From a virus: a stretch of DNA of 62,458 nt. Each line of letters opens with the position of its first letter. Within the stretch, counting starts at the first letter, position 1. The notes beneath the pieces are model-generated. The model did not search any database, was not told where the DNA came from, and saw nothing but the letters and a program-made list of their open reading frames with translations. The translations under genes and the position numbers were made by a program. Of this stretch, positions 1,905 to 59,926 are shown piece by piece. The stretch lies in IMG/VR virus record IMGVR_UViG_3300045741_000405, positions 1 to 62,458 of that record; one strand, given 5' to 3'.

Positions 1905-3059
1905 CTAAGTAAGAACCTCAGGGTCCCAATCCTCAATTCCACTCAATACCCCGTACCTACGATAATTCAAAGCCTCCCTAATCGTACCACAGTCTGGATG
2001 CACAGGCTCTAAATGAAATATCCCCTCACTGTGGTTAACCATCTTCAAATATACCCTCTGCATCCCAATACCAAAGTCTATCCGATAAAGCTCGTAAGAT
2101 GCACCCTTCTTCAACTTGTCCGCACACATATCCAGTAACTTGTGCGGACAAACTGACAAAAGACGCTCTACACCTACCTTCCGTATGAATTCCCTACGGA
2201 CTTCGTTGTTTTGGATAGTGGTGTAATAAAAAGGATCAAGCTTTTCCGCAGGCGTATCACAAATGTACGCTGGCATGGGTATGCCATTAATACGCCAAAT
2301 GCTTACTCCGTCACGGTATTTTATGGCTGGACCGGTGGTACAACCGATGTCATTCCCCTCAAATAGCATTAGTTCTGGACGATCCTGTAGGATGGCTACG
2401 TCTTCGTATGCGTCCCACCACCCACAGTGTTGTGCAAGTTCTACAAGCCCCTCCAGCTTATCTCGATCTTCCAGATTATAGATAGTCCCAAAGAATTCGT
2501 AGAAAAGAAGCCATGCTGCTTCATGGCATCCAAGCATCTGAGAACCAACATGCGAAGAGATGAACGATTTACCTCTTCCTACCGTAGCGGTAATGTGCTT
2601 AATCAGCGTGCCCATAAGATCGTCAGTCTTTTTAAGGATCGGTAGTATCTTGCTCTTCTTATTCCCACAGAAATTGGATACTACCTCAATAATTTTTTCG
2701 GTACATCGCCTATGTACTTCCTCTGTCTCTAACCCATCGAATCTTAGATCTTTAAAATACTCTTCAAACTCTTCTCTAAAGGCATTAGCCCCTATTTTTT
2801 GAACTATGGTTTTGATTTTTGTGCCCACCCCAAACTCAATAGCTTTGAGTAATGCAGCCATCATGGCGCAGCTTATTGGAGATTTGGCATGTAGGAATAG
2901 CTTTGGGATAGGTTTCTTAGCTATCTTGTAACACTTTATAGCGGCTTTTTTGGCTTTTCCGTAGTCTAAGGGGTCACAGCTTGTGCCTATTTTTAGCCAT
3001 TTTTCCCCAAACTCGATAGCCGAGGCTTCTTGTTCCTTGGTTAAAACTGGTCTTTCCAT
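1905..3059 (-). CDS. DUF6745-like protein, 384 aa
   Basis: The C-terminal half matches the pattern I recall for DUF6745: a helix-rich part, then DRPELMLFEGNDI, GPAIKYRDG, a WRINGIPMP stretch, NNEVRREFI and a late REALNYRRYG segment. The molecular function of that family is not known to me. The N-terminal 180 residues are helical and lack recognisable motifs. The start is preceded by a palindrome (3062-3079) whose AGGA is seven bases from the ATG. The neighbour upstream, a small GxTGHHH protein, is a partner I have seen beside such genes, which supports a two-gene cargo module. Confidence 0.7.
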   Translation of the reverse strand: MERPVLTKEQEASAIEFGEKWLKIGTSCDPLDYGKAKKAAIKCYKIAKKPIPKLFLHAKSPISCAMMAALLKAIEFGVGTKIKTIVQKIGANAFREEFEEYFKDLRFDGLETEEVHRRCTEKIIEVVSNFCGNKKSKILPILKKTDDLMGTLIKHITATVGRGKSFISSHVGSQMLGCHEAAWLLFYEFFGTIYNLEDRDKLEGLVELAQHCGWWDAYEDVAILQDRPELMLFEGNDIGCTTGPAIKYRDGVSIWRINGIPMPAYICDTPAEKLDPFYYTTIQNNEVRREFIRKVGVERLLSVCPHKLLDMCADKLKKGASYELYRIDFGIGMQRVYLKMVNHSEGIFHLEPVHPDCGTIREALNYRRYGVLSGIEDWDPEVLT

Positions 3060-3414: not shown

Positions 3415-3744
3415 CTATAGGCCACGAGAATGAAGTATCCCTGCGATATCTTCTCTGGATTTATTAGATGTATCATTCCAGGAAATGATTTCGAAGAACA
3501 ATTTGCTACCATCTTCTTTGAGCGATGGATAGGTGGTGCATAATTTTTCGTATACCCCAAGAGCAGCACCGTATTCTCCCATTCTTAGGAATAATTCGTA
3601 TTCCTTCTTAGACATTTTTCCAAATGTTCCTTCATACGCAGCTCCTAATGTGCAACTTGAACGTCCATCGCAGCCAAACAGGCAACGAACGCTCTTATCT
3701 GGACGAATACTTGTTCCACGGATGATTGCATTGGATAGTTTCAT
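3415..3744 (-). CDS. Hypothetical Cys-containing protein at the end of the repeat array
   Basis: From the ATG at 3744 the product starts MKLSNAIIRG and is a 109-residue soluble protein with CLFGCDGRSSC (possible metal site) and a helical C-terminal half. A palindrome copy at 3581-3595 is read in frame as LFLRM. The ATG overlaps the TGA of the last repeat micro-ORF (ATGA), so it looks translationally coupled to the array. An in-frame ATG at 3879 would add a Glu-Pro-rich N terminus (ELEPEP repeats). I prefer the short form, but the long one is possible. Confidence 0.6.
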   Translation of the reverse strand: MKLSNAIIRGTSIRPDKSVRCLFGCDGRSSCTLGAAYEGTFGKMSKKEYELFLRMGEYGAALGVYEKLCTTYPSLKEDGSKLFFEIISWNDTSNKSREDIAGILHSRGL

Positions 3745-3911
3745 CGGCTCCGGCTCCTGCTCCTGCTGCGGCTGCGGCTCCAGCTCATGCTCATGCTCCA
3801 GCTCCCGCTCCGGCTCCAGCTTCGGCTCCGGCTCCAGCTCTCGCTCCGGCTCCGGCTCCAGCTCCCGCTCTTGCTCCATCGATTAGTCTGGATCATCATG
3901 TGGATGGTCAT
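3742..3911 (-). CDS. Ser-X repeat micro-ORF 8
   Basis: It starts MTIHMMIQTNRW. Its SR-stop overlaps the ATG at 3744 of the non-repetitive gene 3415-3744, so the run of repeat ORFs ends in a normal gene. Confidence 0.38.
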
Positions 3912-4132
3912 CGGCTCCAGTTCCTGCTCCTGCTGCGGCTCCCGCTCCAGCTCCAGCTCCCGCTCCGGCTCCGGCTCCAGCTCAGGCTCCAGCTACGGAT
4001 CCCGCTCCCGCTCCCGCTCCAGCTCCGGATCCGGCTCCGGCTCCCGCTCCCGCTCCCGCTCCGGCAACGGATCCAGCTCCGGCTCTCGCTTCTGCTCCAA
4101 CGATTAGCTTGGATCATCATGTAGGTGGTCAT
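3908..4132 (-). CDS. Ser-X repeat micro-ORF 7
   Basis: It starts MTTYMMIQANRW and then has Ser-Arg/Gly/Trp dipeptides with scattered Ser-Ile and Ser-Leu. Both ends show the ATGA overlap. Confidence 0.4.
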   Translation of the reverse strand: MTTYMMIQANRWSRSESRSWIRCRSGSGSGSRSRIRSWSGSGSGIRSWSLSWSRSRSGSWSWSGSRSRSRNWSR

Positions 4133-4305
4133 CGGCTCCAGACCCCGCTCAAGCTCAGGCTCCTGCTCCCGCTCCGGCTCCGACTCCCGCTCCTGCTCCA
4201 GCTCCGGCTCCAGCTCCAGCTACGGATCCAGCTCCCGCTCGCGCTCCGGCTCCTGCTCCGGTTCCAGCTCCATCGATTGGATTGCGTCATCATGTGGGTG
4301 GTCAT
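4129..4305 (-). CDS. Ser-X repeat micro-ORF 6, short unit
   Basis: It has the same MTTHMMTQSNRW leader, followed by the second-shortest repeat tract of the array. The start and stop overlap those of its neighbours as ATGA. A Glu-frame extension from 4494 is possible. Confidence 0.38.
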   Translation of the reverse strand: MTTHMMTQSNRWSWNRSRSRSASGSWIRSWSWSRSWSRSGSRSRSGSRSLSLSGVWSR

Positions 4306-4526
4306 CGGCTCCGGCTCTGGCTCCGACTCCAGCTCCCGCTCCAGCTCCAGCTCCCGCTCCGGCTCCCGCTCCAGCTCCCGCTCCAGCTCCCGCTCTCGCT
4401 CCTGTTTCGGCTCCTGCTTCGGCTCCCGCTCCAGCTCCCGCTCCAGCTCCCGCTCTCGCTCCTGTTTCGGCTCCTGCTTCGGCTCCAGCTCCATCGATTG
4501 GATTGCGTCATCATGTGGGTTGTCAT
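4302..4526 (-). CDS. Ser-X repeat micro-ORF 5
   Basis: It starts MTTHMMTQSNRW and then has Ser-Trp/Arg/Gly repeats, with an internal duplication of about 60 bases visible at 4380-4490. Both ends show the ATGA overlap. Confidence 0.4.
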   Translation of the reverse strand: MTTHMMTQSNRWSWSRSRSRNRSESGSWSGSWSGSRSRSRNRSESGSWSGSWSGSRSGSWSWSGSWSRSQSRSR

Positions 4527-4747
4527 CGGCTCCAGCTCCCGCTCCGGCTCCAGCTCCCGCTCCGGCTACCGCTCCGGCTCCTGCTCCTGCTGCGGCTCCA
4601 GCTCATGCTCATGCTCCAGCTCCCGCTCCCGCTCCGGCTCCAGCTCATGCTCCAGCTCCCGCTCCCGCTCCCGCTCAGGCTCCGGCTCCGGCTCCAGCTT
4701 CGGCCCCCGCTCCATAGATTAGCTTGGATCATCATGTGAATGGTCAT
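4523..4747 (-). CDS. Ser-X repeat micro-ORF 4
   Basis: It starts MTIHMMIQANLW and then carries Ser-Arg, Ser-Gly and some Ser-Met dipeptides. The stop overlaps the start of unit 5. A longer in-frame start at 4984 would add a Glu-rich segment read from unit 3, so unit 3 DNA would then be read in two frames. Confidence 0.4.
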   Translation of the reverse strand: MTIHMMIQANLWSGGRSWSRSRSLSGSGSGSWSMSWSRSGSGSWSMSMSWSRSRSRSRSGSRSGSWSRSGSWSR

Positions 4748-4764
4748 CGGCTCCAGCTCATGCT

Positions 4765-5016
4765 CTAGCCCCTGCTCCAGCTCATGCTCCGGCTCCCGCT
4801 CCGGCTCCCGCTCCCGCTCCGGCTCCCGCTCCCGCTCCAGCTCCAGGTTCTGCTCCCGCTCCCGCTCCTGCTCCCGCTCCTGCTCCCGCTCTCGCTCAGG
4901 CTCCGGCTCCCGCTCCGGCCCCAGCTCCAGCTCCCGCTCCCGCTCCCGCTCCTGTTTTGGCTCCTGCTTCGGCTCCAGCTCCATAGATTGGATTGCGTCA
5001 TCATGTGGGTTGTCAT
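4765..5016 (-). CDS. Ser-X repeat micro-ORF 3, ends early
   Basis: It starts MTTHMMTQSNLW and has the longest repeat tract. A TAG at 4765-4767, where other units have TGG, stops it a few codons before the next start at 4747, so the ATGA coupling is lost here. The upstream Glu-frame extension begins at 5211 and reaches this ATG in frame. Confidence 0.35.
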   Translation of the reverse strand: MTTHMMTQSNLWSWSRSRSQNRSGSGSGSWSWGRSGSRSLSESGSRSGSRSGSGSRTWSWSGSGSRSGSGSRSGSRSMSWSRG

Positions 5017-5243
5017 CGGCTCCCGCTCCCGCTCCCGCTCCAGCTCAGGCTCCCGCTCCAGCTCCAGCTCCCGCTCCCGCTCCGGCTCCAGCTCCGGCTC
5101 CCGCTCCTGCTCCGGCTCCCGATCCCGCTCCCGCTCAGGCTCAGGCTCCGGATCCGGCTCCAGCTCCAGCTCCAGCTCCCGCTCCTGCTCCCGCTTCGGC
5201 CATAGGTCCAACGATTAGCTTGGATCATCATGTGGGTGGTCAT
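5013..5243 (-). CDS. Ser-X repeat micro-ORF 2, 76 aa
   Basis: It starts MTTHMMIQANRW and then alternates Ser with Gly, Arg or Trp. The start overlaps the stop of unit 1 and the stop overlaps the start of unit 3, both as ATGA. GGAG is present three bases before the ATG from the preceding hexamers, so coupling rather than an independent site is expected. Confidence 0.4.
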   Translation of the reverse strand: MTTHMMIQANRWTYGRSGSRSGSWSWSWSRIRSLSLSGSGIGSRSRSGSRSWSRSGSGSWSWSGSLSWSGSGSGSR

Positions 5244-5452
5244 CGGCTCCAGCTCCAGCTCCCGCTCTGGCCCTCACTCCCGCTCCCGCTCCTGCTCCGA
5301 CTCCAGTTCCGGCTCCGACTTAGGCTCCGGCTCCAGCTCCCGCTCCGGCTCCGGCTCCCGCTCCGACTCCAGGTTCTGCTCCCGCTCCAGCTACAGATCC
5401 CGCTCCAGCTCCAACGCCAAGGATTAGATTTTGTCATCATGTGAATGGGCAT
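5240..5452 (-). CDS. Ser-X repeat micro-ORF 1
   Basis: This first ORF of the array starts MPIHMMTKSN, a divergent form of the leader shared by the other units, and continues as alternating Ser and Trp/Arg/Gly. An in-frame ATG at 5470 lies inside the upstream terminator hairpin and is less likely. The stop overlaps the next start as ATGA. Confidence 0.35.
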   Translation of the reverse strand: MPIHMMTKSNPWRWSWSGICSWSGSRTWSRSGSRSRSGSWSRSLSRSRNWSRSRSGSGSEGQSGSWSWSR

Positions 5453-5460
5453 GTGAAATG

Positions 5461-5495
5461 GCCTGCCCATGGGATCATTATTTCCATGGGCAGGC
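5461..5495 (-). terminator. Hairpin after gene 5507-5794
   Basis: GCCTGCCCATGG (5461-5472) and CCATGGGCAGGC (5484-5495) form a perfect 12-bp stem with an 11-base loop. Read leftward it follows the stop of the gene at 5507 and precedes the hexanucleotide array. The following T-content is low (CATTTCAC), so it may terminate only in part or act as a processing structure. Confidence 0.6.
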
Positions 5496-5506
5496 TACTA
5501 TCCTTT

Positions 5507-5794
5507 CTACTTCTGAGTTCTAGGGAGAGGGTGCAGCCAGATGGAGATGTCGACCACTGCGGCCCGTGCAACCCACACCGGTGAGCCATCGGGATAGGGC
5601 TCAACCTCCGCGAATTGGCCGGTTTTTAATGAGTCGGCGAATCGGCCTGTCTCCGCAATCCAGGCGGCATCCTTCAAAATGAAATATTCAGGAGTCACCT
5701 CCTCACATTTCCCAGTGAAGTAATTGGTGCAAGTCTTGATAAAAATCGACTTGCCGGTGAACGGACAACCGCTTTGCTTTTTGGCTTTTGCCAT
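5507..5794 (-). CDS. Conserved phage/bacterial hypothetical protein, 95 aa
   Basis: The pattern YFTGKCEEVTPEYFILKDAAW, then ETGRFADSLKTG, EVEPYPDG and a final AVVDISIWLHPLP is one I recognise from many phage and bacterial small proteins, but I know no name or function. It is a compact, probably beta-rich protein. AAGGAT lies a few bases before the ATG. It is the first gene of the leftward block and is divergent from the terminase operon. Confidence 0.8.
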   Translation of the reverse strand: MAKAKKQSGCPFTGKSIFIKTCTNYFTGKCEEVTPEYFILKDAAWIAETGRFADSLKTGQFAEVEPYPDGSPVWVARAAVVDISIWLHPLPRTQK

Positions 5795-20881: not shown

Positions 20882-22252
20882 GTGGCCAAACTTTTCCAAT
20901 ATCAAAGTCTCTCCGTAGAGCCAGCACATCTTCTTGATAAAGAAGAGACCGCTGCCCATTTGGATAAGTGGTGGCAGCAACCGTCCGAGCCAATAGTTAA
21001 GAGAAGACGTCCAGTAGCTAATATCGGTATTACGGTAGTAGATCCTCTTCTTTTAACTCTACCGGAAGAAACAGCGTCACACTTAGATAAATGGTGGCAG
21101 CAACCGTCTGAACCAATAGTTAAACGAAGACGTCCAGTAGCTAATATTGGGCATATCTCTATTGAGCCTCTTCTTATCACACAAAAAGAAGAGACTGCCG
21201 CTCATATAGATAAGTGGTGGCAGCAATATTCAGAACCAATAGTTAAAGTTCGTCGTCCAGTAGCCAATATTGGGTTTACTACCACTGATCCAAAGCATCT
21301 TCTTGATCCCGGTCCGGCTCCAGCAACCGGTGGGCCACTGTGGACAGCAAGAAATCTTGCGCCACGCGGGATCAATTTCACACCTGTAATTTATCCAGCT
21401 CTTGCTGTTATTACTGGAACAGCCACAAATTTCATAGAGATAGTTGGGCCACTTCCAACTCCGATTAATCGGTATCTCAAGCCACCTACCTCGCACCAAA
21501 CGAAAAGACAGATAAGATTTAAACGACATTTCTACCAAGGAATGTACGTTATAGATCCTTCGTTGGGAGTAACTGCTCAAGCAGATAATCGAACAGAGAA
21601 TAAGGCCAATCAACAGACGGCAGTTTCCGTTCTTGTAGAATGGCTAACTCAGCAAGTTATTCCTAAGAATAATTTGAATGAGAATCTCGGGCAGATCTTT
21701 TCACAGATCACAAACCTAAAAGAGAATAAAGGAAATCTCACTCCAACAGCTTCCGAGTTAACAGAGAATCTACTTCAGCTCATTCCGCAAGCCAATGATC
21801 TAAATGAATGGCTTGCTCAAGCGGGTGTTTCCGCCGTTTCTAATACTGCAACGAATATCCTCGAATGGATTCAAACTACTACCCCAGCTCAAAGCACTGA
21901 TCGAACAGAGAGCCTTGTTTTCCTTCTTTCTTCAGCTTTAACTTGGAATGAATGGCAGACCTCGTTGCTTCGTTCGGCTATCGATTTCTTTGAGTACGAG
22001 GGCTATCTCGGACCTACCGCTACGAATTTCTGGGAAATAACTCTTTCCGCCGCCTTTATTAACTCCTTGTCTCTGGATAGAATTGAGATCAAGCAGTTAG
22101 TGAGTACGGTGACAACGAATGTTTCTGAATTCCGGTTGGGCACTGGAGTGGTTGTGCTAACGAGAGATCTTTTTACGGATGTTCTTATTTCGCAAGATTT
22201 ATTCGTGGATAGTCAAATAACGCAAGATTCAGTCGTAGACGTTGATATTTGA
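20882..22252 (+). CDS. Structural protein with three tandem Trp-rich repeats
   Basis: A 41-residue unit is repeated three times at exactly 123-base spacing (20942, 21065, 21188), with the core LDKWWQQPSEPIVKRRRP. The rest is beta-rich and Asn/Thr-rich with several NxxEW segments. The start is GTG right after the zinc-finger gene. A palindrome copy (21657-21672) is read in frame as VIPKNN. The repeats resemble Trp-rich segments I have seen in uncultured phage proteins. The role is unknown. Confidence 0.6.
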   Translation: MAKLFQYQSLSVEPAHLLDKEETAAHLDKWWQQPSEPIVKRRRPVANIGITVVDPLLLTLPEETASHLDKWWQQPSEPIVKRRRPVANIGHISIEPLLITQKEETAAHIDKWWQQYSEPIVKVRRPVANIGFTTTDPKHLLDPGPAPATGGPLWTARNLAPRGINFTPVIYPALAVITGTATNFIEIVGPLPTPINRYLKPPTSHQTKRQIRFKRHFYQGMYVIDPSLGVTAQADNRTENKANQQTAVSVLVEWLTQQVIPKNNLNENLGQIFSQITNLKENKGNLTPTASELTENLLQLIPQANDLNEWLAQAGVSAVSNTATNILEWIQTTTPAQSTDRTESLVFLLSSALTWNEWQTSLLRSAIDFFEYEGYLGPTATNFWEITLSAAFINSLSLDRIEIKQLVSTVTTNVSEFRLGTGVVVLTRDLFTDVLISQDLFVDSQITQDSVVDVDI

Positions 22253-43980: not shown

Positions 43981-44862
43981 ATGTCAGATGATCTCGGGAT
44001 CGATGAGGCTCTTGCGGATTTGAAAGTTGGGGATGATACTTCGACCAAGGTTATGGATATCCCGCTGAAAAGTCTTCAGCTCGAAAACCTTGATCGCAAT
44101 AAGACGGAGTTCAGCGGCGAGAAGCAGCAAGAATTGATTGATTCAATCCAGGCCCAAGGATTGATCTCACCAATTGTGGTTCATGAGCTTGAGGAGAAGC
44201 CGGGAACCTATCGGGTCATTGCCGGCAAGCGGCGCGTGATGGCCTATAAGAAACTCAAGCGTGAAGCCATTCCAGCCATCATTCGAAATGTCTCCGGTGA
44301 GTTCGATTTCCAGTCTCAGGTGATTCTGGATAACGTGGTCCGAACCCAGCCGGATGTGGGCAAGTATGTTCCCATCATTAAGGAATGGCTTGAGACCGGC
44401 GTTTGCAAGTCTCAGGAGGAAGCAGCGAAGAAACTCGGGCTATCTCAGTCTTGGGTTTCCAAAATGCTTCGCTATGAAGAATTGCCGGATGAAGTGAAGG
44501 CAGGTATCAAGCCGGCAAATCTTCCTTCTTCCGACGAAATCGAGGGGGCTTCACCTGAAGAAATCGTTAAAAAGGTTTCCGATAAAATCTATACCAAGCT
44601 GCCTTCGGAATATCTTAAGCCTTCTGAGGGTGATGCCGTCCCACTCAAAGTCCATGTCTCGAAGAAAGCGATTAGACTTCAGGTGGAGATTGCTTTCTCT
44701 GAACTCAAAGACAAGTCTATTTCCCAGCAGATTGCCGCTCATCTTGAACGGATTGGGGAAAAGGAATTGTTCTCGAATATCAAGAAATTCAAGAACATGG
44801 AGTTCTCTAATAAGGTGAACGGCAAAGACACTGAATCTACCGATAAGGCTAATGGGGACTAA
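43981..44862 (+). CDS. parB: ParB/Spo0J-like DNA-binding protein
   Basis: An N-terminal ParB domain shows IPLKSLQLENLDRNKTEF, GLISPIVVHEL and AGKRRVMAYKKL, the last replacing the usual GERR box. A helix-turn-helix follows (SQEEAAKKLGLSQSWVSKML, about residues 140-160), and the C terminus is helical. There is no ParA nearby. ParB proteins bind 16-bp palindromes, and the genome's repeated 16-18-bp palindrome is a candidate site (inference). It overlaps the next gene by 11 bases. Confidence 0.8.
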   Translation: MSDDLGIDEALADLKVGDDTSTKVMDIPLKSLQLENLDRNKTEFSGEKQQELIDSIQAQGLISPIVVHELEEKPGTYRVIAGKRRVMAYKKLKREAIPAIIRNVSGEFDFQSQVILDNVVRTQPDVGKYVPIIKEWLETGVCKSQEEAAKKLGLSQSWVSKMLRYEELPDEVKAGIKPANLPSSDEIEGASPEEIVKKVSDKIYTKLPSEYLKPSEGDAVPLKVHVSKKAIRLQVEIAFSELKDKSISQQIAAHLERIGEKELFSNIKKFKNMEFSNKVNGKDTESTDKANGD

Positions 44863-59218: not shown

Positions 59219-59485
59219 CTAAAATCAGGATTATTCCTAGGAATAATTGAGAACTAAAATCAGAGTTCGATATCATACAGCTAAATTAGATTCAGCTAAA
59301 ATCAGTGGGTTGAAGATATTCTTCAGGAATAATTGGGAACTAAAATCAGTGCCCATCCAAGAGGTACAAACAACTAAAATCAGTGCTCTATGGAATTAGG
59401 GGCAACTAAAATCAGAACCCAACAAAACTAAAAACAGAATTAGCTAAAATCAGTTTTAACTAAAATCAGTTTTAACTAAAATCAG
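59219..59485 (+). repeat. Iteron array CTAAAATCAG, ten copies
   Basis: Copies begin at 59219, 59254, 59296, 59340, 59374, 59406, 59428 (one mismatch, CTAAAAACAG), 59444, 59460 and 59476, all in the same orientation. The spacing shrinks from about 40 bases to exactly 16 bases for the last four. A palindrome copy sits between the first and second. Further exact copies lie at 9385, 9947, 48039, 49359 and 58595. Confidence 0.88.
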
Positions 59486-59616
59486 GCCGCCGGCCCAGCC
59501 AGCTACCCCCCGCTCTGGGCGCGAAAACTTGCCATGTATCCGCGCCCTGTTTTTCGGTGGGGAATTTTTCCCAGTGGAATTTTTCCCACAAATGGGAAAT
59601 TTTTCCCATAGGCGTT

Positions 59617-59815
59617 ATTCCTACGAATATAGGAAAAATTCCTACGAATATAGGCGTTATTCCTATAGGCATTATTCCTACGAATATAGGCGTTATTCCT
59701 ACGAATCTTTCCTATAGGAATTTTTCCTACGAATATAGAAATTTTTCTTATAGGCATTATTCTTACGAATATAGGCGTTATTCCTATAGGCATTATTCTT
59801 ACGAATATTGGAATC
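59617..59815. repeat. Second palindrome-like array (TTCCTACGAATATAGG)
   Basis: The sequence GTTATTCCTACGAATATAGG and its variants occur about seven times between 59617 and 59815, alternating with TTCCTATAGG and CATTATTCCTA. Each unit shares the TTCCTA and GGAAT parts of the genome-wide palindrome but has CG in the centre and AT-rich arms. TTTTTCCCA repeats precede it. Both strands are formally open here, but the reading is simple repeat sequence, not a gene. Confidence 0.8.
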
Positions 59816-59926
59816 TTTTACCATAGGCATTATTTGGCATGATATTTTATTTTTTGAATTGGCATAGCAATTGCGCCGCGCGCGTGCGCGATGATGATAC
59901 GTATTGGATCGGCTTTGTGGGATTTT

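Follow-up and report, generated by a model that had tools for sequence, protein, structure and literature searches.

Organisation of the Ser-X array

Does a hexamer repeat in a tailed phage genome encode a set of small proteins, or are its open reading frames (ORFs) an accident of the repeat? The sequence under study is the 62,458-nt IMG/VR record IMGVR_UViG_3300045741_000405 (positions 1 to 62,458, one strand), analysed as a whole and called the window here; it is a complete virus record, and its terminase, portal and capsid genes mark it as a tailed phage. On the minus strand, from 5452 to 3741, we found the eight tandem micro-ORFs reported by a first-pass annotation of the same DNA, each of 56-83 amino acids and each composed of a 12-residue leader followed by an (AGC NGG)n body that reads as Ser-X. 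Along this strand they are ORF 1 (5240-5452, 70 aa, leader MPIHMMTKSNPW, with a further in-frame ATG at 5470), ORF 2 (5013-5243, 76 aa, MTTHMMIQANRW), ORF 3 (4765-5016, 83 aa, MTTHMMTQSNLW), ORF 4 (4523-4747, 74 aa, MTIHMMIQANLW), ORF 5 (4302-4526, 74 aa, MTTHMMTQSNRW, with an internal 60-bp duplication), ORF 6 (4129-4305, 58 aa, again MTTHMMTQSNRW), ORF 7 (3908-4132, 74 aa, MTTYMMIQANRW) and ORF 8 (3741-3911, 56 aa, MTIHMMIQTNRW). The coordinates bear out the stop/start coupling that had been claimed: at seven of the eight stops an ATGA joins the stop to the following start codon, ORF 8 being joined in this way to the gene at 3744. ORF 3 is the exception, its premature TAG being separated from the following ATG by 17 nt. 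The gene coupled to the array (3415-3744, minus strand) encodes 109 amino acids and had no Pfam, PHROG or PADLOC match. Farther downstream, with the same orientation as the operon, come a 108-aa protein that matched a PHROG weakly and then a DUF6745 protein (1905-3059, minus strand).

The start-to-start distances are 227, 227, 269, 221, 221, 173 and 221 nt (the first measured from 5470; 209 from 5452), and all equal 5 modulo 6, as had been noted before. We agree that this phase is no proof of selection: because a leader of 36 nt, a body of 6n, a stop of 3 and an overlap of 4 always leave 5 modulo 6, the spacing is an arithmetic consequence and therefore adds no evidence. Within the hexamer GGAGCN of the window, position N is saturated (A 32, C 77, G 70 and T 58 of 237 units), whereas at each of the other five only 3-13% of units depart from the consensus.

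The gene preceding the array, which the first-pass annotation did not include, is the key to the finding. It lies at 5507-5794 as the first gene of the minus-strand operon and encodes a 95-aa protein ending in LHPLPRTQK. Between it and ORF 1, at 5461-5495 on the same strand, RNA folding of an 80-nt piece gave a hairpin with a 12-bp stem (-29.4 kcal/mol); this strong hairpin spans the alternative ATG at 5470 and would hide that start.

Other repeats are present in the window. An 18-bp palindrome, ATTATTCCTAGGAATAAT, recurs at 51 dispersed sites from 888 to 60481 (three mismatches or fewer, against an expectation of 0.04). Copies often directly follow a stop codon and in some cases lie in frame within a gene, reading IIPRNN. 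The gene for a ParB-like protein is found at 43981-44862 in this phage. A tandem-repeat cluster at 59426-59834 holds degenerate copies of the palindrome (TTCCTA..TAGGAA) and is a possible origin, partition or packaging site. In the structural gene region, a 123-bp tandem repeat (2.5 copies, 20963-21274) lies inside a 456-aa ORF.

The Ser-X frame is the coding frame

Three frames cross the repeat, giving Ser-X, Glu-X and Gly-Ala, and the Glu-X frame also runs in-frame through each unit of the window. The window leaders had a pN/pS of 0.25 in the Ser-X frame compared to 3.32 and 0.54 in the other two. A start codon followed by an open run was present in the Ser-X frame of 66 of the 67 neighbour-found arrays, whereas each of the other frames had them in 32-33 of the 67. 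In a set of some 100 arrays that had three or more types of N, an ATG within 75 nt and an open frame were found for Ser-X in 73/96, compared to 19/98 and 9/97. Inside the window array there is one stop in the Ser-X frame, five in the Glu-X frame and 16 in the Gly-Ala frame, and both the Gly-Ala and Glu-X frames were ruled out as coding by these stops and by their missing starts. TGA and TAG codons that arise from T at N together with A in the next two bases were depleted in the window (1 observed, 5.6 expected; P=0.011, or P=0.035 once duplicates were collapsed).

The first-pass annotation had proposed dN/dS on leaders versus repeats as a check. The leaders had the low pN/pS given above; in the repeat body of the window synonymous changes were not clearly favoured over non-synonymous ones. 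This missing synonymous excess is consistent with recent slippage.

The serine codon is exchanged between phages while the peptide is kept

All six serine codons served as the dominant serine codon in one phage or another. In a first scan the dominant codon by phage was TCG in 48, AGC in 13, TCT in 4, TCA in 4, AGT in 3 and TCC in 2; in a second it was TCG in 34, TCT in 18, AGC in 8, TCA in 5 and AGT in 1, which sums to TCG 82, TCT 22, AGC 21, TCA 9, AGT 4 and TCC 2. As TCN and AGY codons cannot be interconverted by one change, the peptide is therefore the conserved thing. By this comparison of sequences, selection acts on the Ser-[Arg/Trp/Gly] peptide and not on a DNA or RNA motif.

NGG codons made up 1534 of 1604 X codons. 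The set of bases at N was almost always either {A,G,T} or else {C,G,T}, which yields Trp, Gly and a single codon for Arg. Of 65 distinct arrays, 56 used only one of AGG and CGG for Arg, always with Trp, and all but four of these also contained Gly. The choice of Arg and Ser codons tracked the GC content of the locus (P=1e-5 and 3e-4). In a single phage (L356), the ORF after the Sm-like gene has Tyr (TAC 12, TAT 2) in place of Trp, together with CGC and GGC, and is apparently an independent form of the same peptide design. Overall the bodies consist of 45% S, 17% R, 15% W and 13% G with a median net charge of +10, and R, W and G follow one another in random order; this is an RS/RG-type composition, with Arg, an aromatic residue and Ser/Gly, positive charge and random order.

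The upstream gene encodes a predicted Sm-like protein

AlphaFold modelled the 5507-5794 protein with a pLDDT of 91.6 and a pTM of 0.80, and the two divergent branches of its family gave pLDDT values of 91.6 and 89.2. Searched against the PDB with Foldseek, nearly all of the top 50 matches of the first branch (E 0.0019-0.032) and all of the top 50 of the second were Sm/LSm chains, with E values of about 0.001-0.03 across both branches. From its membership of family alignment A1, the model and the Foldseek matches, the product of 5507-5794 is predicted to adopt the Sm/LSm fold, a strongly bent five-stranded barrel. There was no Sm, LSm or Hfq model among the Pfam or NCBIfam matches of the partner, and no PDB sequence match of note; the window protein had no Pfam match and one weak PHROG match. 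As no sequence profile ties the partner to Sm or Hfq, the assignment therefore rests on the fold. With regard to the Sm1/Sm2 signature, the RNA-binding residues were not clearly conserved, and the RG of Sm2 was found in some members only. The window protein is 33-50% identical to A1-type members and 18-23% identical to A3-type members, and the window, with its Sm-like gene of the A1/A3 type directly beside the Ser-[RWG] micro-ORFs (5452-3741), shares the arrangement of the family.

The cassette recurs in many phages

Scans of IMG/VR for (GGAGCN)7, and subsequently for a pattern that forced mixed N, returned many unrelated phage contigs. The mixed-N pattern occurred at 86 loci in IMG/VR compared to 20 in 84,980 prokaryote genomes, and the cassette was present at three of these 20 (L125, L128 and L137). 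One protein family, that of the Sm-like protein, supplied the upstream ORF in 60 of the 72 array loci that had an upstream ORF, and in four more (L168, L169, L044 and L203) the partner lay just downstream instead. A scan of IMG/VR with the partner only, ignoring the repeat, was carried out for the two branches and gave 238 and 326 relatives. A Ser-[RWG] micro-ORF adjoined the partner in 148 of the 159 loci kept (the best 79 of the 238 and the best 80 of the 326), a set biased by seed alignments that came from AGC-array loci and by the keeping of only the best 80 relatives, in which the majority serine codon was still TCG. By branch, the adjoining ORF was found at 74 of the 79 kept loci of the first, with two more cut by contig ends, and at 74 of the 80 of the second, with three more cut and three carrying short versions. 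Three Sm-like genes (L220, L223 and L275) had no recognisable adjoining Ser-X ORF; L220 and L223, relatives with 85% identity, may reveal what takes its place.

The Ser-X start was at -4 (ATGA) from the partner stop in 66 of 126 cases. Copy number was one in most loci and ranged from one to eight; the eight copies of the window are the maximum of 233. Leaders in other phages followed the consensus M-N-[AQ]-A-[IV]-L-R-x-G-[FWY] with a modal length of 12; those of the window (MTTHMMTQSNRW and the others) have this length, and their scores against the leader profile of the other phages (P 0.06-0.40) fell short of significance. No other copy of the window leader DNA was found, and the window TerL had no relatives in IMG/VR. 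Among the cassette loci we saw no fusion of the Sm-like gene with a Ser-X tail; the cassette was found in no plasmid and no cultured phage, and its only GenBank examples are two Manatee Spring metagenome records. Pfam matches in the genes flanking the cassette were mostly to DNA replication, recombination and modification, and such DNA-metabolism neighbours suggest early expression.

Arrays change rapidly and in frame

The sole difference between L077 and L198 is an in-frame 48-nt indel, and the arrays of L285 and L286 differ by 10 substitutions and one 6-nt indel beside a neighbour gene that is 100% identical. Frame-breaking indels in most units of related phages, which the first-pass annotation had held up against its own reading, were not seen in close pairs, and the array indels of near-identical pairs were multiples of six. 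The hexamer could have arisen through single base changes, which convert TGG to CGG/AGG or to GGG; slippage would then lengthen and homogenise the array in frame, with selection keeping Trp, Gly and one Arg codon mixed. Leader constraint, the opening of the Ser-X frame in 66 of 67 arrays, the six-codon serine swap and the in-frame indels support the earlier proposal of a real operon of paralogous micro-genes, and the Ser-X array is almost certainly a translated phage operon, forming a coding cassette with its Sm-like partner.

Weighing of alternative explanations

One alternative sees in the array a hexamer satellite, non-coding or selfish, or a protein-binding or G-rich DNA or RNA motif, with accidental ORFs. 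It would fit the frame-preserving nature of hexamer slippage, the near fixation of five of the six bases in the window and the synonymous sites of the window array, which are no freer than others; ordinary Ala-Pro linkers such as that of Vibrio phage MZH0603 also contain (GGAGCN)n. The Ser-[RWG] pattern nevertheless survives the switch of the hexamer between TCN and AGY codons, the Tyr version lacks the GG dinucleotide period, only the Ser-X frame combines a start with an open run in nearly all arrays, and the leaders are constrained. The DNA motif was not conserved irrespective of the peptide, a DNA/RNA motif or G-rich array as such is ruled out by the serine codon swap and the Tyr variant, and we find the satellite explanation scarcely credible. 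A hidden Ala-Pro linker was likewise ruled out, as it had no consistent frame; the Vibrio phage match is merely such a linker. It is very improbable that translation itself, rather than its product, is what matters, with runs of NGG slowing or releasing ribosomes and so tuning the next gene. The near exclusive use of NGG at X and the ATGA coupling to the next gene would suit this mechanism, and PMC12204400 describes peptidyl-tRNA drop-off caused by NGG codons near the start. Serine, however, is retained although its codon would be irrelevant to such a mechanism, the Tyr variant has CGC, GGC and TAC codons instead, and the leader places NGG beyond the sensitive first codons.

Two further alternatives accept the peptide as the product. 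In a toxin-antitoxin or lysis-type module, an Arg/Trp-rich peptide would harm membranes or translation and the Sm-like protein would restrain the peptide or its mRNA. The pair of small genes with a 4-nt overlap (the -4 class above) and the cationic, Trp/Arg-rich peptide speak for such a module, but a membrane toxin would rarely come as eight successive copies, be hypervariable in order and length, or have a hydrophilic Ser in every other position; PADLOC gave no matching model and the flanking genes are mostly of DNA metabolism, and we hold this explanation to be rather unlikely. A nucleic-acid or host-protein decoy, serving anti-defence or host takeover and needing only charge and aromatics, with the Sm-like protein as an operon partner without direct contact, is in our view an unlikely explanation. 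It would account for a conserved composition in random order and for rapid array turnover, and DNA methyltransferases and recombination genes are among the neighbours. Against it, one protein family adjoins nearly every locus, sometimes in swapped order (the four downstream cases above), which argues for joint function.

A possible role in RNA handling

With slightly better than even confidence, we take the best overall explanation to be an RNA-acting phage operon of an Sm-like protein and detached cationic-aromatic tails. Sticker-spacer RNA-binding disordered chains have a composition like that of the Ser-X body, and some eukaryotic Sm/LSm proteins carry RG-rich tails (those of SmB, SmD1 and SmD3, and the LSm4 tail). 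Like RS/RG-rich RNA-binding tails, the Ser-X body is probably a disordered chain that is both cationic and aromatic, in which case Arg and Trp would act as 'stickers' and Ser and Gly as spacers. Together with the Sm-like protein, the peptide may act on RNA, serving as a detached tail tunable by copy number, and the pair would bind RNA, possibly making ribonucleoprotein condensates early in infection. An RNA or condensate role of the cassette seems to us a plausible proposition at somewhat below even confidence. Only tentatively can a prokaryotic split Sm ribonucleoprotein system be suggested, in which an Sm-fold ring and free hypervariable Ser-[Arg/Trp/Gly] peptides would serve RNA condensates or RNA handling in early infection, at a strength set by the number of tandem copies and by slippage of the hexamer in frame.

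Relation to known systems

Pfam, PHROGs and PADLOC held no model covering the Ser-X peptides, the defence families of PADLOC did not match the cassette, and in the open-access literature we found no paper with these peptide strings or with the pairing of an Sm-like protein and Ser-X peptides. The cassette is widespread in uncultured phages and undescribed. Standard annotation has overlooked this protein family because it looks like a junk repeat and its micro-ORFs have no homology model. The six-codon swap is an unusually clean proof of selection on a low-complexity peptide, and two ideas become testable: that phages, like eukaryotes, possess Sm-type proteins whose tails are disordered, cationic and aromatic, and that in-frame hexamer slippage drives fast viral protein evolution.

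The (GCTCCN)n Ala-Pro linker of Vibrio phage MZH0603 (QGT52240.1) has the same hexamer by chance but is a single in-frame linker within a normal protein. Myoviridae sp. ctTUS972 (MW202573.1, Manatee Spring) also has the cassette, whose products (UOF78857.1/UOF78858.1) bear no annotation beyond hypothetical protein; unlike the window, it has a single Ser-X ORF of 43 aa with TCG serine codons. DUF6948 phage proteins (PF22253) and a phage 'Sm-like domain containing protein' have a similar predicted fold in a viral structure library, although the PF22253 model was matched by none of the 26 partner-family members scanned. Sm/LSm/Hfq proteins (archaeal SmAP, Lsm1-7 and the LSm domains of Edc3 and LSM14) resemble the partner in its predicted five-stranded barrel and give the best PDB matches for both branches, whereas the partner is phage-encoded, known by predicted fold and without a sequence-profile match, and the classic Sm1/Sm2 signature is not conserved in it. 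The RG/RS-rich tails of SmB/SmD1/SmD3 and LSm4, SR proteins and FUS-type sticker-spacer regions share with the phage peptides the Arg and aromatic stickers, the Ser/Gly spacers and an Sm-fold partner, but in the phages the tail has a micro-gene of its own, alternates Ser-X strictly, is rich in Trp and is present in up to eight copies.
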